Shown one piece after another: positions 3 to 32,846 of a DNA stretch of 64,000 nt; position 1 is the stretch's first letter, and each line of letters starts with the position of its first letter. Made by a program: the position numbers and the translations under genes. The notes beneath the pieces are model-generated. The model searched no databases and was not told the origin of the DNA. It saw only the letters and a program-made list of their open reading frames with translations. The DNA comes from Spirosoma rhododendri (GTDB lineage: Bacteria; Bacteroidota; Bacteroidia; Cytophagales; Spirosomataceae): contig NZ_CP051677.1 of the NCBI RefSeq assembly GCF_012849055.1, forward strand, positions 3,301,001 through 3,365,000, written 5' to 3'.

Positions 3-419
3 GATGCGGTGCTAGCCGTGTTCGACCATGTCAGCACGGGCCGATTTGAAGGGCGATCTGAGCTGGGAACGTACCTGTATCAATTATTTTCTAACAAATG
101 TGTTGACGCTATTCGGAAAAAGACGACTAACCGGAGTAGTGTCCACAATGCCTTTTCGCTGGACGACAGCTTGCTGCAACTGCCCGACGCGGCCCGTTCG
201 ATTGTCCAGCAACTGATCGCCAAAAGCGACGTTGAGCAGCTGCATAAGTACCTGCACGAACTAGGCGAAAAATGCCGGAACATGGTGCTGGCGTGGGGCG
301 AGGGGTATGGCGACGACGAAATTGCGCAACAGCTGGGCTACGCGTCGGCCGCGGTTGCCAAAACCAGTCGGCTGCGCTGCATCGACAAACTACGCGACCG
401 TTATCTGAACAGGTTATGA
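3..419 (+). CDS. ECF-type RNA polymerase sigma factor, 5' end outside window
   Basis: This is the C-terminal part of an RNA polymerase sigma-70 factor of the ECF class. The open frame enters from the left edge and reads DAVLAVFDHV, then a region-2-like stretch (TYLYQLFSNKCVDAIRKK). A region-4 helix-turn-helix follows near the end (GDDEIAQQLGYASAAVAKTS, then RCIDKLRDRYL). The GTG at position 9 is unlikely to be the true start because conserved region-2 sequence continues upstream of it. The stop overlaps the start of the next gene (ATGA at 416-419), which implies translational coupling to the anti-sigma-like protein. Family assignment rests on motif recognition only; the promoters it controls cannot be told from here. 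Confidence 0.8.
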   Translation, partial: DAVLAVFDHVSTGRFEGRSELGTYLYQLFSNKCVDAIRKKTTNRSSVHNAFSLDDSLLQLPDAARSIVQQLIAKSDVEQLHKYLHELGEKCRNMVLAWGEGYGDDEIAQQLGYASAAVAKTSRLRCIDKLRDRYLNRL

Positions 420-1168
420 ACGAGCTGGAAACAATCGAAAACTACGTAAACGGCTTGCTATCGCCCGACGAACGGGCCCGGTTTGATGCGGAACTGGCTT
501 ATAACTCAGCTTTGGCCGAGTCGCTGGCGTTCTACGTGTTGACGCAGGAAGTGGCCCGTCAGCAGGCGCTCGACACCCGCAAGGCCGAACTGGCTGCGCT
601 GCGAACCCGCCCGGTGCCGTCAGAAGCCAGTGTACGGCCCTTGTGGGGCAGTGCGGGTATGGTCCGCTGGCTGGCCGTCGCTGCCAGTGTCGTGCTGGTG
701 CTGGCGGTGGGTTACTACGCCCTGCGCCCAAAAACTGATACGCTGGCCGCCCTGACAACAACGTACGCCAATGAGCGTTTTGGCCAGTTGCCGGTAACGA
801 TGGGTGGAAAATCGGACGATGTTCAGCAGGGAATTGCCCGGTTCAACGACGGTCAGATTGCCCGCGCCGATTCGCTGTTCGAGACCGCACTCCGCACCCA
901 GCCCCAGCGCGATGATGCGCTGACTTATGCCGGTATAACAGCCTTTCGGTTAGGGCAGTACGACCGCGCTATCGACCGGTTTCAGCGGCTGGGGCAGCTG
1001 CCCGGTCGGTTTGCCAACCCCGGCCCTTACTACGAAGCACTTGCCCGGCTTCGTCGGAACTTACCGGATGATAAAAGCCGGGCGAAAGGCTTGCTCGAAC
1101 AGGTTGTCCGGCAGAACTTAGTTGGAGCGAAAGAAGCCGAAAGACTTCTGGCAACGAACAACTTGTAA
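416..1168 (+). CDS. Membrane anti-sigma-like protein with periplasmic TPR region
   Basis: A protein of 250 residues. I start it at ATG 416 because this overlaps the sigma stop codon and opens with the typical anti-sigma phrase MNELETIENYVNGLLSPDER. Residues 1-80 are a charged, probably cytoplasmic domain; 82-102 form one transmembrane helix; about 120-250 contain TPR-like helices (DALTYAGITAFRLGQYDRAI). The layout of cytoplasmic sigma-binding end, one helix and an outer domain is that of transmembrane anti-sigma factors. No zinc-binding HxxxCxxC motif is visible, so it is not a classic ZAS protein. Inferred role: it holds the upstream sigma factor until something acts on the periplasmic part. 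A longer frame starting at 272 exists but overlaps the sigma gene and is not used. Confidence 0.7.
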   Translation: MNELETIENYVNGLLSPDERARFDAELAYNSALAESLAFYVLTQEVARQQALDTRKAELAALRTRPVPSEASVRPLWGSAGMVRWLAVAASVVLVLAVGYYALRPKTDTLAALTTTYANERFGQLPVTMGGKSDDVQQGIARFNDGQIARADSLFETALRTQPQRDDALTYAGITAFRLGQYDRAIDRFQRLGQLPGRFANPGPYYEALARLRRNLPDDKSRAKGLLEQVVRQNLVGAKEAERLLATNNL

Positions 1169-1182
1169 AACCACGTCCACAC

Positions 1183-1653
1183 ATGATCGATATCAGAGAA
1201 CTTATTGCGGAACGGCAGCGCCGGGACCCTGCTTTTCGGGTAACGCGGGATGTTCGGTCCGGGCAGTACTTCGTGCAGAACCAGGTCGTTTTTCAGTATC
1301 CTGTCGATAAAACGTCTGAAGAAACGGTAAAGCTGGCTCAGGGGTACATCGACCGTATCAATCAGCAGCGGCAGACCGCCGGGCAACCGTTGCTCCGGGT
1401 GAAAATCACTGCTCTATCGAAGGGGGTGGTTATCGTCAATGGGCGGGGTGCTACTGAATTGATTGGTGGCGGAGGGACGACGCCCCACCCGCCACCACCA
1501 CCACCACCGCCGTGGCGGCCCGACGACATTCGGCTTGATCGGGTACTGGTCATCCACGTGCTGGCGGAAATCAACAAGGGTAGATTCGATATACTACTCA
1601 CATCGCAGGCCCTAGCTGCGGGTATTAGTCTGGAAGTGCTATCGGTTGTCTGA
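1183..1653 (+). CDS. Hypothetical protein with polyproline linker
   Basis: A protein of 156 residues that I do not recognise. It has an N-terminal half (MIDIRELIAERQRRDPAFRV), a glycine-rich patch, a linker of His followed by eight prolines and Trp, and a C-terminal 40 residues rich in beta-branched amino acids ending in LEVLSVV. There is no signal peptide or transmembrane segment. It lies 14 bp after the anti-sigma-like gene and 24 bp before the CHAT protease gene, so it is probably part of the same operon. The proline run is encoded partly by a CCA repeat, which may vary in length between strains and would need EF-P for efficient translation. Confidence 0.55.
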   Translation: MIDIRELIAERQRRDPAFRVTRDVRSGQYFVQNQVVFQYPVDKTSEETVKLAQGYIDRINQQRQTAGQPLLRVKITALSKGVVIVNGRGATELIGGGGTTPHPPPPPPPPWRPDDIRLDRVLVIHVLAEINKGRFDILLTSQALAAGISLEVLSVV

Positions 1654-1677
1654 TGTAACCTGCTAATAAGCGATACC

Positions 1678-4467
1678 ATGAGTTGGGCCCGATGCATCGT
1701 TCGTGGGTTGCTGATCGGTAGTGCGGTCGGATTGTGCGTCGGTGCAGCCCGTGCACAATGCCTGTCGGCAGCGGATGTGCGGGCGCGTATCGACCATGCC
1801 ATGCGTCAACCGAGGGGCCCTACAGCGCAATTCTACGCCGATATTCGACAGCAACTCATTCGCAATCGCTGCCCGGCCGACACGGTGTTGGCCCGCGTAA
1901 CCATGCGACTGGGGTACGCGCAGTATTTTCAGCCGCCGAACGATTCGGCGTTGGTGTGGCTACGGGAAAGCATTCGGTTGTACCAGCGGTTGCCAGTCGG
2001 GCAGCGGGCTGGGTTGGTGCAGGCGTTCATGTACCTAGGGCAGGTGTTGCATTACCAGGACGATGTGGAATCGGCGGCCGAGGCTTACCAATCCTCTGTG
2101 ACGTTGGGTGGAAACGAACCACGGCACGATTCGCCGGTGGGATACGCACTGAGTGGTCTGGCACTGCTGGCCTATCAGAAAGGCGACTACGAAGCCGGTC
2201 TGGTCTATGCAGAGCAGTCAATACAGCGCGCCCGGCGTTGTCGGGATTTCAGGTTAGAAGCCCGTAGCCTGAACGAAGCTGCCCGCTGCCTGCTCTACCT
2301 TGATCGGTACGAGACCGCCCTGCGGCACTGCGAACGGGCCGTCAGCCTGACACAGAACGACCCTTCCACCACCGACGAACGACGCTTGTACGAACTTTTT
2401 CGGGCGCAGGCACTGGCGGGGTTGCGTCAGTATGACCGGGCGTTAAGTCTCTATAAAAGGCTATTGACTGATTATCAGCGGACGAAACAGTACAGCCGCG
2501 TTGCCGACGTGTGCGACTACATCGGCGAACTGTATGCCACCCGCCTGAATGACCAGGCTTGCGCTATTCGCTATTATCAGCAGGCGTATACCCTGTACGA
2601 CAATCCCTACGAAAAAAGCCGTAGCTTGGATGGTATCGGGCGGGCACAGCAGCAGCAGGGGCAGTACCGGGCGGCTCTGATTACGTTTCAGCGGGCCTTG
2701 CAAACCTTGCCGATTCAGTTTCACAAGCCCGACCTGCGTGCTAACCCCGAACCGGCCACGATTCGCCTGTCGGCCCACAAAGAATACCTGCTCACCTTAA
2801 TCTGGCATAAAGCCGACACTTGGCTAGCCTACGCCCAAACGACCAGCCAGCCAACGCCCGCACTGACACAGGCTCTGTCGACCTATCGGGTGGCTGATCA
2901 AATGATCGATCAGATGCGGTGGGCACAGCACGGGGAGCAGTCGAAACTGTACTGGCGACAGCAGACGCGCGCTTTCTACGAGCGGGCGTTGGAAACCTGC
3001 TACCGGCTGAATAACCCCGAACAGGCTCTGCATTTTTTTGAGAAGAGCAGGGCCGTATTGCTGACCGATAAGCTCAACGAGCTGGGAGCGAGCCGGGGGT
3101 TGCCCCCCGCTCTACAGGCGGAAGAGCAGGCCCTGCGCCGGGCCGTCGACGGGCAGGTGGCGGCCCTAAGTCAGCTACAGCCGGGCAGTGCCGCCTACAC
3201 CACGGCCCGCGCGGCTCTGATGAGCGAACAGGACCGGGCTGACGCCTTCACGCAAAAACTGGAGCGCATCAACTCGGCTTACTACCGCTACCGCTACGAC
3301 AACTGGGTGCCCGCCCTGACCGATCTATACCAGTATCTCGGGCAGCGGCAGGCGGCTTTCGTGTCATACTTCGTCGGCGACAGGGCACTCTACGTGCTGA
3401 ACGTGCAGGAGGGCAAGGCGCAGATAAACCGGCATCCGCTGGGCCGATACCAGCAAACCGTTCGCGAATACCTGGCGCTGCTGGGCAAGCCGGAGACACT
3501 CAATCGCTCATTTTCGGCTTTTCATGCACTCAGTAAGCAGCTCTACAGTCAACTGCTGGCCCCGCTGCACCTTTCCCCCGGCCGCGTCATCGTCTCTCCC
3601 GACGGGCCGTTTATCCCCTTTGAAACGCTGCGCGAATCGCCCGATAGCCCGACCTACGCCCTCGATCAGTTCGCGTTCAGCTACGCCTATTCTGCCCGGT
3701 TTTTATTGCGTACGATGCAGTCGCCCGGCACCGATGGCACTACGAGCGATTTTCTGGGCGTTGCGCCGGTTCGATTTTCGCCGGGGCTGAATCAGGCTCC
3801 ACTGCCCGGCTCCGAAGCCGCCTTGCGCACCATTGGCGACCGCTTCGCGACCCCCACGCTATTGCTCGACAAACAGGCGACGCGCCGGGCTTTTCTGGAC
3901 GCATCGGCTTCGTTTCGGGTGGTGCATCTGTTCACGCACGCCCTCGCCGATTCGTCGGGGCAGGAACCCCGGCTGTTCTTCGCCGACTCAACGGTATCGC
4001 TGTCGGAGCTGGGGCAGGGTACGTTGATGAATACGCAACTGGTAACGCTGGCGGCCTGCGAAACCGGTACGGGTGTCGAGCAGCGGGGGGAGGGGGTGTT
4101 TAGCCTGGCGCGGGGGTTTGCGGCCCTCGGCGTCCCGGCCGTGCTGACGACGCTATGGAGTGTGCAAAACAAATCGACCTACCAGATCACTGCTCAGTTC
4201 TACCGCTATCTGGCCGATGGATTGCCGAAAGACATTGCGCTGCAACGCGCCCGTCAGGACTGGCTCCGAACCGCCGAGGGCACCGACCAATTACCGTCGG
4301 CCTGGGCCGGGCTGATTCTGGTGGGTAATACCGAGCCGCTAAGTGCCGGTGGGCGTCGGGACTGGCTGGGTGGCCTGTCGGGGCTGCTGGTGGGCGGACT
4401 ATGCCAGCTGGGCTGGCGTCGATGGCGCCGGGAGCGGACGGCTAATACTCGATTGCTTTCAGAATAA
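1678..4467 (+). CDS. Exported TPR-CHAT domain protein (caspase-like protease)
   Basis: A protein of 929 residues. Residues 1-26 look like a signal peptide ending at ARAQ. About 60-350 carry TPR repeats (for example LGYAQYFQPPNDSALVWLRE and LNEAARCLLYLDRYETALRH). A helical linker follows, and the last third is a CHAT domain of the caspase fold. The likely catalytic pair is His754 (HLFTHA) and Cys794 (LAACETG), followed by the CHAT phrase GFAALGVPAVLTTLW. A hydrophobic segment with a basic tail near the C terminus (GGLSGLLVGGLCQL, then RRWRRER) suggests a membrane anchor. Inferred place: periplasm. Its position after sigma and anti-sigma-like genes suggests a signalling protease. The gene end overlaps the convergent lipoprotein gene by 26 bp. 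Confidence 0.85.
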   Translation: MSWARCIVRGLLIGSAVGLCVGAARAQCLSAADVRARIDHAMRQPRGPTAQFYADIRQQLIRNRCPADTVLARVTMRLGYAQYFQPPNDSALVWLRESIRLYQRLPVGQRAGLVQAFMYLGQVLHYQDDVESAAEAYQSSVTLGGNEPRHDSPVGYALSGLALLAYQKGDYEAGLVYAEQSIQRARRCRDFRLEARSLNEAARCLLYLDRYETALRHCERAVSLTQNDPSTTDERRLYELFRAQALAGLRQYDRALSLYKRLLTDYQRTKQYSRVADVCDYIGELYATRLNDQACAIRYYQQAYTLYDNPYEKSRSLDGIGRAQQQQGQYRAALITFQRALQTLPIQFHKPDLRANPEPATIRLSAHKEYLLTLIWHKADTWLAYAQTTSQPTPALTQALSTYRVADQMIDQMRWAQHGEQSKLYWRQQTRAFYERALETCYRLNNPEQALHFFEKSRAVLLTDKLNELGASRGLPPALQAEEQALRRAVDGQVAALSQLQPGSAAYTTARAALMSEQDRADAFTQKLERINSAYYRYRYDNWVPALTDLYQYLGQRQAAFVSYFVGDRALYVLNVQEGKAQINRHPLGRYQQTVREYLALLGKPETLNRSFSAFHALSKQLYSQLLAPLHLSPGRVIVSPDGPFIPFETLRESPDSPTYALDQFAFSYAYSARFLLRTMQSPGTDGTTSDFLGVAPVRFSPGLNQAPLPGSEAALRTIGDRFATPTLLLDKQATRRAFLDASASFRVVHLFTHALADSSGQEPRLFFADSTVSLSELGQGTLMNTQLVTLAACETGTGVEQRGEGVFSLARGFAALGVPAVLTTLWSVQNKSTYQITAQFYRYLADGLPKDIALQRARQDWLRTAEGTDQLPSAWAGLILVGNTEPLSAGGRRDWLGGLSGLLVGGLCQLGWRRWRRERTANTRLLSE

Positions 4468-31443: not shown

Positions 31444-32436
31444 ATGCTGAAATCTGTAATGAATCGTCTGGGCATGGCAACGGTTGTGCTGGCAACCGGC
31501 TTTCTGGTCAGCAACTGTAAGTCGGATCTCGACATGGAAACCCCTGCGCCAGCAAACACGGCAGCCAATGCGCGACTCGCAACTGGCGAACACTATGTAC
31601 CGGGCGAAGTATTGATTCAGTTTACCAAAGGGTTAAGTGCCGTTAGCCGCCTGCCCATTCTTAACCTTATCAGCGGAACGGTTGCCGAAACTATCCTAAC
31701 TAAAACCATGCAGGATGCCGGCATCACCGAAGGCATACTGCGGGTGAAGACAACCAAAGAAATTGCGCAGGTGCTGAGCCTGCTGAACGGCGTGCCGGGC
31801 GTCGAATTTGTCGAACCCAACTTTATTTACACCCATCAGGCAACGTCCAACGACCCGCTGTATACCAACGGGTCGCTGTGGGGAATGTATGGGTCGGCAA
31901 CTTCGCCCGCCAATCAGTTTGGTAGCGGAGCCGGAACAGCCTGGGCCAACAACAAAACCGGGTCGAGCTCGGTGATCGTCGGCATTATCGACGAAGGCTA
32001 CATGACCACCCACGCCGATCTGAGTGCCAATGTCTGGGTGAATCCATACGAGACGGTAAACGGTCGCGACGACGATGGTAACGGCTATATCGACGATGTA
32101 AACGGCTGGGATTTTGCGGCCAACGACGCCAGCGTATACGACGGTACGTCAGACGATCACGGTACGCACGTAGCCGGAACCATCGGCGCGCGCGGTGGTA
32201 ACGGCGCGGGTGTGGCCGGTGTCTGCTGGAACGTAAAAATGATTGCACTGAAGTTTCTGGGTGCCGACGGTGGGTCGACAACGGCCGCTATCAAAGCCAT
32301 CGATTACCTGACTGATATGAAAACGCGGCACGGCCTGAACATCGTGGCCAGCAACAACTCGTGGGGGGCGGTGGCTTCTCGCAGTCGCTGCAAAGCGCCA
32401 TCGGCCGGGCCAACAACGCCGGTATCCTGTTCGTAG
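31444..32436 (+). CDS. Subtilisin-like S8 serine protease, N-terminal fragment (frameshift)
   Basis: The first part of an exported subtilase. The N terminus (MLKSVMNRLGMATVVLATGF) leads into a possible lipobox ending SNC. A prodomain of the fervidolysin type follows (HYVPGEVLIQFTKGLSA). The catalytic domain starts with Asp in VGIIDEGYMTTHADL and His in DDHGTHVAGTIG. At about residue 305 (NNSWGAVASRS) the frame leaves the family pattern; one added G in the run 32363-32368 gives NNSWGGGGFSQSLQSAI and joins the next fragment. Confidence 0.8.
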   Translation: MLKSVMNRLGMATVVLATGFLVSNCKSDLDMETPAPANTAANARLATGEHYVPGEVLIQFTKGLSAVSRLPILNLISGTVAETILTKTMQDAGITEGILRVKTTKEIAQVLSLLNGVPGVEFVEPNFIYTHQATSNDPLYTNGSLWGMYGSATSPANQFGSGAGTAWANNKTGSSSVIVGIIDEGYMTTHADLSANVWVNPYETVNGRDDDGNGYIDDVNGWDFAANDASVYDGTSDDHGTHVAGTIGARGGNGAGVAGVCWNVKMIALKFLGADGGSTTAAIKAIDYLTDMKTRHGLNIVASNNSWGAVASRSRCKAPSAGPTTPVSCS

Positions 32437-32846
32437 CCGCTGCCGGTAACGGTGGTAGCGATGGCGTTGGCGATAACAACGATCAGACAGCCAACTATCC
32501 CTCGAACTACACTAATGCCAACGTGATTGCCGTTGCGTCGATCACGTCGTCGGGTGCTTTGTCGAGCTTCTCCAACTACGGCGCGCAGACGGTCGACATC
32601 GGGGCTCCGGGTTCGGGTATTCAGTCGACCCTGCCATACACGGGTACGACTCCGTCCTATGGTGCCTACAGCGGCACATCGATGGCGACACCACACGTGA
32701 CGGGGGCCATTGCGCTCTACAAATCGATCAACACATCGGCTACGGCGTCGCAGATCAAATCAGCGATCCTGAACGCAGGAGCGGCTACGTCGTCGCTGTC
32801 GGGCAAGTGCGTAACCGGCGATCGACTACGGGTCAGCTCGTTCTAA
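32361..32846 (+). CDS. Subtilisin-like S8 serine protease, C-terminal fragment (frameshift)
   Basis: This frame carries the rest of the subtilase: the oxyanion region GILFVAAAGNGGSDG, and the catalytic Ser in GTSMATPHVTGA. The GTG at 32361 is only the first in-frame start codon and lies inside the catalytic domain. Combined with the upstream fragment the protein would have about 468 residues. There is no sorting domain at the end, so secretion would rely on the N-terminal signal. Confidence 0.8.
   Translation: MGGGGFSQSLQSAIGRANNAGILFVAAAGNGGSDGVGDNNDQTANYPSNYTNANVIAVASITSSGALSSFSNYGAQTVDIGAPGSGIQSTLPYTGTTPSYGAYSGTSMATPHVTGAIALYKSINTSATASQIKSAILNAGAATSSLSGKCVTGDRLRVSSF

Follow-up and report, generated by a model that had tools for sequence, protein, structure and literature searches.

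Genetic organization of the operon

We analyzed a 64,000-nucleotide stretch of Spirosoma rhododendri DNA (the window; contig NZ_CP051677.1, positions 3,301,001 to 3,365,000 of the forward strand), which opens with a four-gene operon. All four genes lie on the plus strand and encode, in this order, an extracytoplasmic function (ECF) sigma factor, an anti-sigma factor, a third protein, and a protease in which tetratricopeptide repeats (TPR) precede a CHAT domain. The four-gene arrangement reported by the first-pass annotation of this DNA was confirmed. By sequence identity, the third gene and the N-terminal TPR half of the CHAT protein are swapped jointly between close relatives, while the sigma factor, the anti-sigma factor and the CHAT half stay alike. 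This joint exchange is an informative feature that was absent from the first-pass annotation.

The window holds the 3' part of the sigma gene (positions 3 to 419); the full gene (L002:7841-8419, L002 being the locus of the window; 192 amino acids) starts 160 bp upstream. Its product matched the sigma70-ECF model TIGR02937 at 57 bits against a cut-off of 42.9. The anti-sigma gene (416 to 1168, 250 amino acids) is joined to the sigma gene by an ATGA overlap, and the later gaps are 14 and 24 bp, as had been stated when a single operon was proposed; the genes also form a single co-inherited module. The anti-sigma protein has a single hydrophobic helix near residues 80 to 100, between a predicted cytoplasmic N-terminus and a predicted outer TPR domain (repeats at residues 137 to 193). 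It resembles the curated anti-sigma family NF052375, at 32.2 bits and thus under the cut-off of 100. The protein shows features of a membrane anti-sigma factor, namely one helix behind a short, predicted cytoplasmic N-terminus and a gene adjoining that of its ECF sigma factor. Loci L039, L042, L045, L046, L049 and L050 carry two anti-sigma-like genes between the sigma gene and the gene for an S8 protease. The promoter upstream of the sigma gene, compared by eye across relatives, showed no firm conserved motif.

The third gene (1183 to 1653) is present here in a short form of 156 amino acids, which sits where relatives have an S8 protease. It is followed by the gene for the TPR-CHAT protein (1678 to 4467, 929 amino acids), which was characterized by domain and signal prediction and an alignment of 56 sequences. 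Residues 1 to 26 (1678 to 1755) form a putative signal peptide with a hydrophobic stretch; the consensus of the 56 proteins contains AQCP, with a presumed mature start at QC. The TPR half (residues 27 to about 360, 1756 to 2757) is the part that is exchanged in relatives together with the third gene. The constant half (residues about 361 to 929, 2758 to 4467) contains the CHAT domain at residues 617 to 884, which scored 166 bits against a cut-off of 24. The predicted catalytic residues His754 (3937 to 3939) and Cys794 (4057 to 4059) are invariant in 56 of 56 proteins, as expected of the caspase-like CHAT family. A weakly hydrophobic stretch before an Arg-rich tail (residues 896 to 913, 4363 to 4416) is a possible membrane anchor. 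The protein is a putative protease that is predicted to be exported. The prediction speaks against a cytoplasmic location, in line with the exported TPR-CHAT protease proposed at first.

The protein is the sole CHAT match in this 6.05-Mb genome. Its closest named relative comes from a Spirosomataceae metagenome-assembled genome (65% identity); Spirosoma, Larkinella and others come next, at about 40 to 46%. The solved structures listed for it by sequence at E 0.1 were 16, all TPR proteins by name, and no relation to Csx29 was seen among them.

Joint exchange of the third gene and the TPR half

The first sign of the exchange was that the identity of the third gene was no longer predicted by that of the sigma and anti-sigma genes. 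In a sliding comparison of two loci from one genus (L060 and L071), DNA identity was 0.93 to 0.99 through the end of the anti-sigma gene, about 0.45 throughout the third gene and the TPR half, and 0.93 to 0.97 from CHAT residue 360 or so to the end. A BLAST comparison of their third proteins gave no match. Runella defluvii and Runella limosa (L060 and L065) showed the same borders on a background of 0.81 to 0.97. Between Dyadobacter sp. 3J3 and Dyadobacter frigoris, identity was 0.72 to 0.96 over 14 kb and 0.41 to 0.50 in the block, with edges of 0.56 to 0.59; Dyadobacter sp. CY356 and D. frigoris remained at 0.73 to 0.94 throughout, with the block unswapped. The genus group of the window is swapped too, on a lower operon background of about 0.6 to 0.85 (L038 vs L087 and L037 vs L038), and L061 vs L099 is a partial case with an extra border within the CHAT domain. 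The window and L083 are not swapped (TPR half 0.63, CHAT half 0.67). The DNA borders are sharp and lie near the anti-sigma stop and CHAT residue 360 or so, with a replaced block of about 2.5 kb.

For the identity statistics, the CHAT protein was divided at window residue 372. Sigma identity reached 0.85 or more in 24 pairs, of which 10 were swapped and 14 unswapped; the pairs are not independent, as they include several trios. TPR halves shared 0.22 to 0.28 identity in the 10 swapped pairs, and third proteins 0.21 to 0.31 in the 8 of 10 measured (the other two pairs involve L071). The 14 unswapped pairs had TPR halves at 0.47 to 0.97 and third proteins at no less than 0.47. None of the 22 pairs with the third protein measured was mixed, with one part swapped and the other not.

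Over 780 pairs, rank correlations among the sigma factor, the anti-sigma factor and the CHAT half were 0.75 to 0.79. The third protein correlated with the TPR half at 0.52, and with the sigma factor, the anti-sigma factor or the CHAT half at 0.22 to 0.28. Given the other three, the partial correlation was 0.47 between the third protein and the TPR half, and -0.07 between the third protein and the CHAT half. Single-linkage clustering at 35% identity gave 20 types of TPR half, 20 types of third protein and 1 type of CHAT half. The type of the third protein predicted that of the TPR half: agreement between the two (adjusted Rand index, 52 loci) was 0.50, 0.96 and 0.73 at single-linkage cut-offs of 0.35, 0.40 and 0.45, and at each cut-off none of 2,000 permutations within CHAT-half clusters was as high. 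By nearest neighbors, the third protein agreed with the TPR half in 28 of 50 loci and with the CHAT half in 17; the 34 discordant loci comprised 15 in which it went with the TPR half, 4 in which it went with the CHAT half and 15 in which it went with neither. In addition, approximately unbiased tests rejected sister TPR halves as clades in three groups, picked after the identities were seen (p = 5e-5, 2e-48 and 1e-5).

At L060:9260-10658, about 1.6 kb downstream of the CHAT gene, identity of L060 to L065 and L071, loci of the same genus, again falls to about 0.45. This second block covers two small genes whose products look exported.

Short and S8 protease forms of the third gene

An S8 protease match was found in 53 of 55 aligned third proteins, the exceptions being the window and its sister L083, and the Asp-His-Ser triad and oxyanion Asn were intact in 53 of 53 S8 forms. 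By these domain matches, an operon with two proteases (S8 and CHAT) is the norm among relatives. The small polyproline protein of the first-pass annotation is thus present in the operon, but it is not a standard part of it, and the short form as an ordinary fixed component is ruled out. Third proteins without an S8 domain occur in L002, L083, L071, L059 and L209. L071 pairs with the S8 locus L060 inside the S8 forms (98 and 99% support in the Shimodaira-Hasegawa-like approximate likelihood ratio test); this nesting supports well one loss or replacement of S8 there. The CHAT tree does not resolve the fork where the short-form clade branches off, and the short form may be either derived or ancestral.

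The third protein of the window has a Pro-rich linker at about residues 101 to 113 and no signal peptide. Searches of Pfam and NCBIfam (E 0.1) and of PADLOC (E 0.01) returned nothing for it, and profile search gave no S8 match. That the short form is a decaying remnant is unsupported, with its open frame kept in L083 and four database proteins. The ratio of nonsynonymous to synonymous substitution rates (dN/dS, NG86) was about 0.19, at a dS of 1.8 that is near saturation. In the predicted model (predicted local distance difference test score, pLDDT, 61), the N-terminal part resembles ferredoxin-like folds with a beta-alpha-beta-beta order; Foldseek with this model returned no match at E 0.001 within the structures compared.

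A possible relation to the subtilase N-domain was also examined. The short form gave a weak in-register profile match to this domain (E 0.0094, probability 4.4), and 24 of 41 best hits of its profile fell in the N-domain against 15.3 expected, a number that 20 column shuffles did not reach (18 at most). The reversed profile likewise placed 14 of 26 best hits there against 9.8 expected. By hhalign, eight N-domain sets gave probabilities below 3, and a control reached 6.5. The best single N-domain hit was L057 (E 4e-6), in a match that takes in the Pro-rich linker; the L057 N-domain is predicted to be all-beta, unlike the beta-alpha-beta-beta order modeled for the short form.

Occurrence of the module in other genomes

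Loci were picked by CHAT match, best first. CHAT relatives were found in 102 of 150 genomes of the family, and a genus search gave 24 of 36 genomes with a CHAT match at E ≤1e-60. By profile search, codirectional sigma, anti-sigma, S8 third and CHAT genes were present in 49 of 61 fetched loci; the window, having no S8 third gene, is outside the 49, and its sigma gene was missed by the calling of open reading frames in this tally. Because 49 of 61 loci fetched for their CHAT match carry the full codirectional set, the arrangement is not due to chance. The order thus recurs widely, and the case envisaged at first, in which the genes are not found together elsewhere, is ruled out. Among the remaining 12 loci, L002 and L083 have the short third gene, L071 a third protein of 194 amino acids without S8, and L102 another third gene. 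S8 is present in L063, with the sigma/anti-sigma pair on the other strand, and in L066, L086 and L096, where the pair is incomplete in the stretch; L059 and L098 lack both S8 and a complete pair. In L073 and L074, distant CHAT paralogues stand tail to tail with another, convergent sigma/anti-sigma pair, an arrangement showing that the link between CHAT and ECF sigma factors is wider than this subfamily.

A further set of named genomes (including Spirosoma, Pedobacter, Chitinophaga, Cyclobacterium, Dyadobacter, Larkinella and Runella) comprised 80 loci, of which one lacked a CHAT call. A codirectional sigma/anti-sigma pair was found in 59 of 79 and an S8 third gene in 69 of 79; 19 of 79 had no pair. 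This set overlaps the first (e.g., L145/L083, L178/L065 and L187/L060), and the Dyadobacter loci L160, L168 and L199 are outside the first set. Across the phylum, 75 of 395 genomes matched the CHAT protein profile at E ≤1e-40. An adjacent sigma/anti-sigma pair was present in 21 of 40 loci, hand-picked for spread from 93 listed matches, against a chance rate of roughly 8%, estimated from a single 6.05-Mb genome with 38 ECF-like matches. The gene before CHAT often differed in this sample, encoding by eye a lipoprotein or a small exported protein. In L121, L122, L124, L128 and L134, from other families, its product is lipoprotein-like (258 to 312 amino acids) and shares by eye a C-terminal motif of RPP plus a hydrophobic stretch.

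Comparison with known systems

The literature searched contained no description of this operon or of the exchange of a TPR half, with most subscription papers and the ECF classification paper beyond reach. In the type III-E Craspase, Csx29 passes the input on through its TPR part and uses its CHAT part to bind and cleave Csx30, which inhibits an ECF sigma factor (PMC10028731, in the portion available). This division of labor provides a precedent for a split between TPR input and CHAT output in the present operon. As far as that portion describes Craspase (Cas7-11, Csx29, Csx30 and CASP-sigma), the systems share a TPR-CHAT protease, input through the TPR part and a sigma inhibitor as target, the last two being conjectural here. 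In contrast to Craspase, the four genes include no CRISPR part (the genome was not searched for Cas7-11 or an array), and the inhibitor would be a membrane anti-sigma factor with TPRs and the presumed input a polymorphic protein rather than RNA. Csx29 is a TPR-CHAT protein that is not known to carry an export signal, whereas the CHAT protein here is predicted to be exported, by its signal-like N-terminus and AQCP consensus. The sigma factor scored 26.7 bits against the III-E sigma family NF041236, with other ECF models equal or higher, and membership in Craspase fails because the cut-off of that family is 100. The sigma factor is thus not of the III-E type; its release by proteolysis, as suggested at first, stays the most economical reading.

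Stepwise proteolysis of membrane anti-sigma factors is described for RseA, by DegS and RseP, and for RsiW (PMC10028731, same portion). The operon resembles these in its one-helix anti-sigma factor, a predicted extracytoplasmic first protease and a site-2 protease family in the genome (PF02163, 2 matches). It differs in that the first protease would be an operon-encoded CHAT cysteine protease with an exchangeable sensor half. ECF group 54 is reported to have subtilase and CHAT proteins in its gene neighborhood, and proteolytic control has been proposed for it (PMC8999054, available text); the likeness is one of gene neighborhood, and here the second gene encodes an anti-sigma factor.

ComQXP of Bacillus is a polymorphic pherotype locus (PMC4408185, available part). 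As in such loci, including agr, the putative signal gene and the sensor half of its receptor co-vary here by sequence, while the output half is constant. The variable part of ComP is its N-terminal half, and the signal gene and sensor half likewise co-vary in agr of Staphylococcus. Pherotype loci employ a small peptide and a histidine kinase, whereas a protein of 129 to 632 amino acids across loci and a protease are found here. Diversity-generating retroelements act on sensors of conflict systems, one target carrying a CHAT domain (PMC10907252, in part). Diversified sensors are common to both, as far as that text goes, but targeted point mutation in those systems differs from the replacement of a whole block in this operon.

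Proposed mechanism and alternative explanations

The gene order, the invariant catalytic residues, the predicted topology of the CHAT and anti-sigma proteins, and the joint exchange against a much more constant background can be taken directly from the sequence. A sensor half that changes with a neighboring gene beside a constant output half suggests a matched ligand and receptor. We therefore propose, as a plausible reading that falls a little short of an even chance, that the operon is a proteolytic signal pathway with exchangeable input, in which the third protein and the TPR half would be a matched pair and the CHAT half would free the sigma factor. The one-helix anti-sigma factor with its outer TPR domain would hold the sigma factor at the membrane, and the TPR-CHAT cysteine protease would sit outside the inner membrane. 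The third protein, usually an S8 protease and here the form without a protease domain, may act on the TPR half as its specific ligand or trigger. When it meets the TPR half in the right state, the CHAT half would become active and cut the outer part of the anti-sigma factor; a site-2 protease would then complete its removal, and the sigma factor would be free to act. Binding of the third protein to the TPR half, CHAT activation, the anti-sigma factor as substrate and sigma release are what we infer.

Several observations count against this proposal. By a simple heuristic, no export signal was recognized in 38 of 55 third proteins, that of the window among them, which is difficult to reconcile with a role as ligand for an exported TPR domain. 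This heuristic is imperfect: it found a signal in 43 of 56 CHAT proteins (13 without a call), in 1 of 54 sigma controls and, falsely, in 11 of 41 anti-sigma factors, where none was expected. Third proteins without export would either leave by another route, or be met after lysis, or act inside the cell, with the co-exchange then due to linkage. A test for a C-terminal anchor was passed by 47 of 56 CHAT proteins, and that of the window failed it (1.29 vs a threshold of 1.5). The sigma factor might alternatively just switch the operon on, with the CHAT protein having another target. Finally, contiguity alone could move the third gene and the TPR half together, and co-exchange is no proof of contact; a functional unit is favored, though not proven, by the sharpness of the borders and the lack of mixed pairs.

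A rather unlikely explanation is that the module is an output, in which the sigma factor drives its own operon, the S8 and CHAT proteases act as effectors against outside targets (phage, rivals or foreign proteins), and the cassette is exchanged as target and counter-target diversify. The presence of two proteases per operon in most relatives examined and the strong diversification of the TPR half and the third protein are consistent with it, and CHAT has been termed a key effector domain of bacterial defense systems (PMC10907252, in part). However, the protease half is constant and the TPR half variable, which suits a varying input better than a varying catalytic target, and the S8 domain is dispensable in the third protein, as in the loci without it. 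PADLOC at E 0.01 also yielded two weak domain-level matches only in the four proteins, a 14-bit CARF stretch in the sigma factor and a TPR match in the CHAT protein. Alternatively, the third protein could be a substrate or inhibitor that plugs the TPR half, its removal or cutting freeing CHAT. We consider this unlikely; given its joint exchange with the TPR half, the third protein is more probably an input than a substrate.

It is also conceivable, with quite low probability, that the CHAT and third genes are mere neighbors without functional pairing, and that the block is exchanged because conserved flanks recombine and the TPR half evolves fast in general. The conserved flanks that recombination needs are present at the borders, and even in unswapped pairs the average conservation of the TPR half is somewhat below that of the CHAT half. 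Against this explanation stand the bimodal identity of the TPR halves among the pairs with similar sigma factors (0.22 to 0.28 in 10, 0.47 to 0.97 in 14) and the drop to 0.41 to 0.50 between strain 3J3 and D. frigoris where CY356 shows none.

If the proposed signal pathway is correct, the Craspase logic, with input to the TPR part and a CHAT protease that cuts a sigma inhibitor, would extend to an operon of the cell envelope, present repeatedly in Spirosoma, Runella, Dyadobacter, Larkinella, Pedobacter and Chitinophaga. It is a case, open to testing, in which the sensing part of a caspase-like receptor of bacteria is exchanged as a cartridge and the protease part remains coupled to a single transcription switch. 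Were ligand and receptor matched by type, the signal between cells, or between self and non-self, would consist of whole proteins and not of peptides. A more speculative and rather unlikely extension is kin or self recognition in Bacteroidota, in which allelic types would be defined by a polymorphic protein together with the TPR half that matches it in a caspase-like receptor. Such types would be kept, would pass from species to species and would be linked through proteolysis to a sigma factor. Ligands without export would perhaps be sensed on lysis of relatives, as a type-specific danger signal.

Neighboring features

Upstream of the window, on the opposite strand (L002:422-5874), a TonB-type receptor, a FecR-like gene and another ECF sigma factor were recognized by eye. 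They form an ordinary FecIR-type system that is near the operon yet separate from it. Within the window, at 31444 to 32846, an S8 protease gene is broken across two frames; open reading frames of 330 and 161 amino acids overlap at 32361 to 32436, which points to a frameshift or an assembly error.

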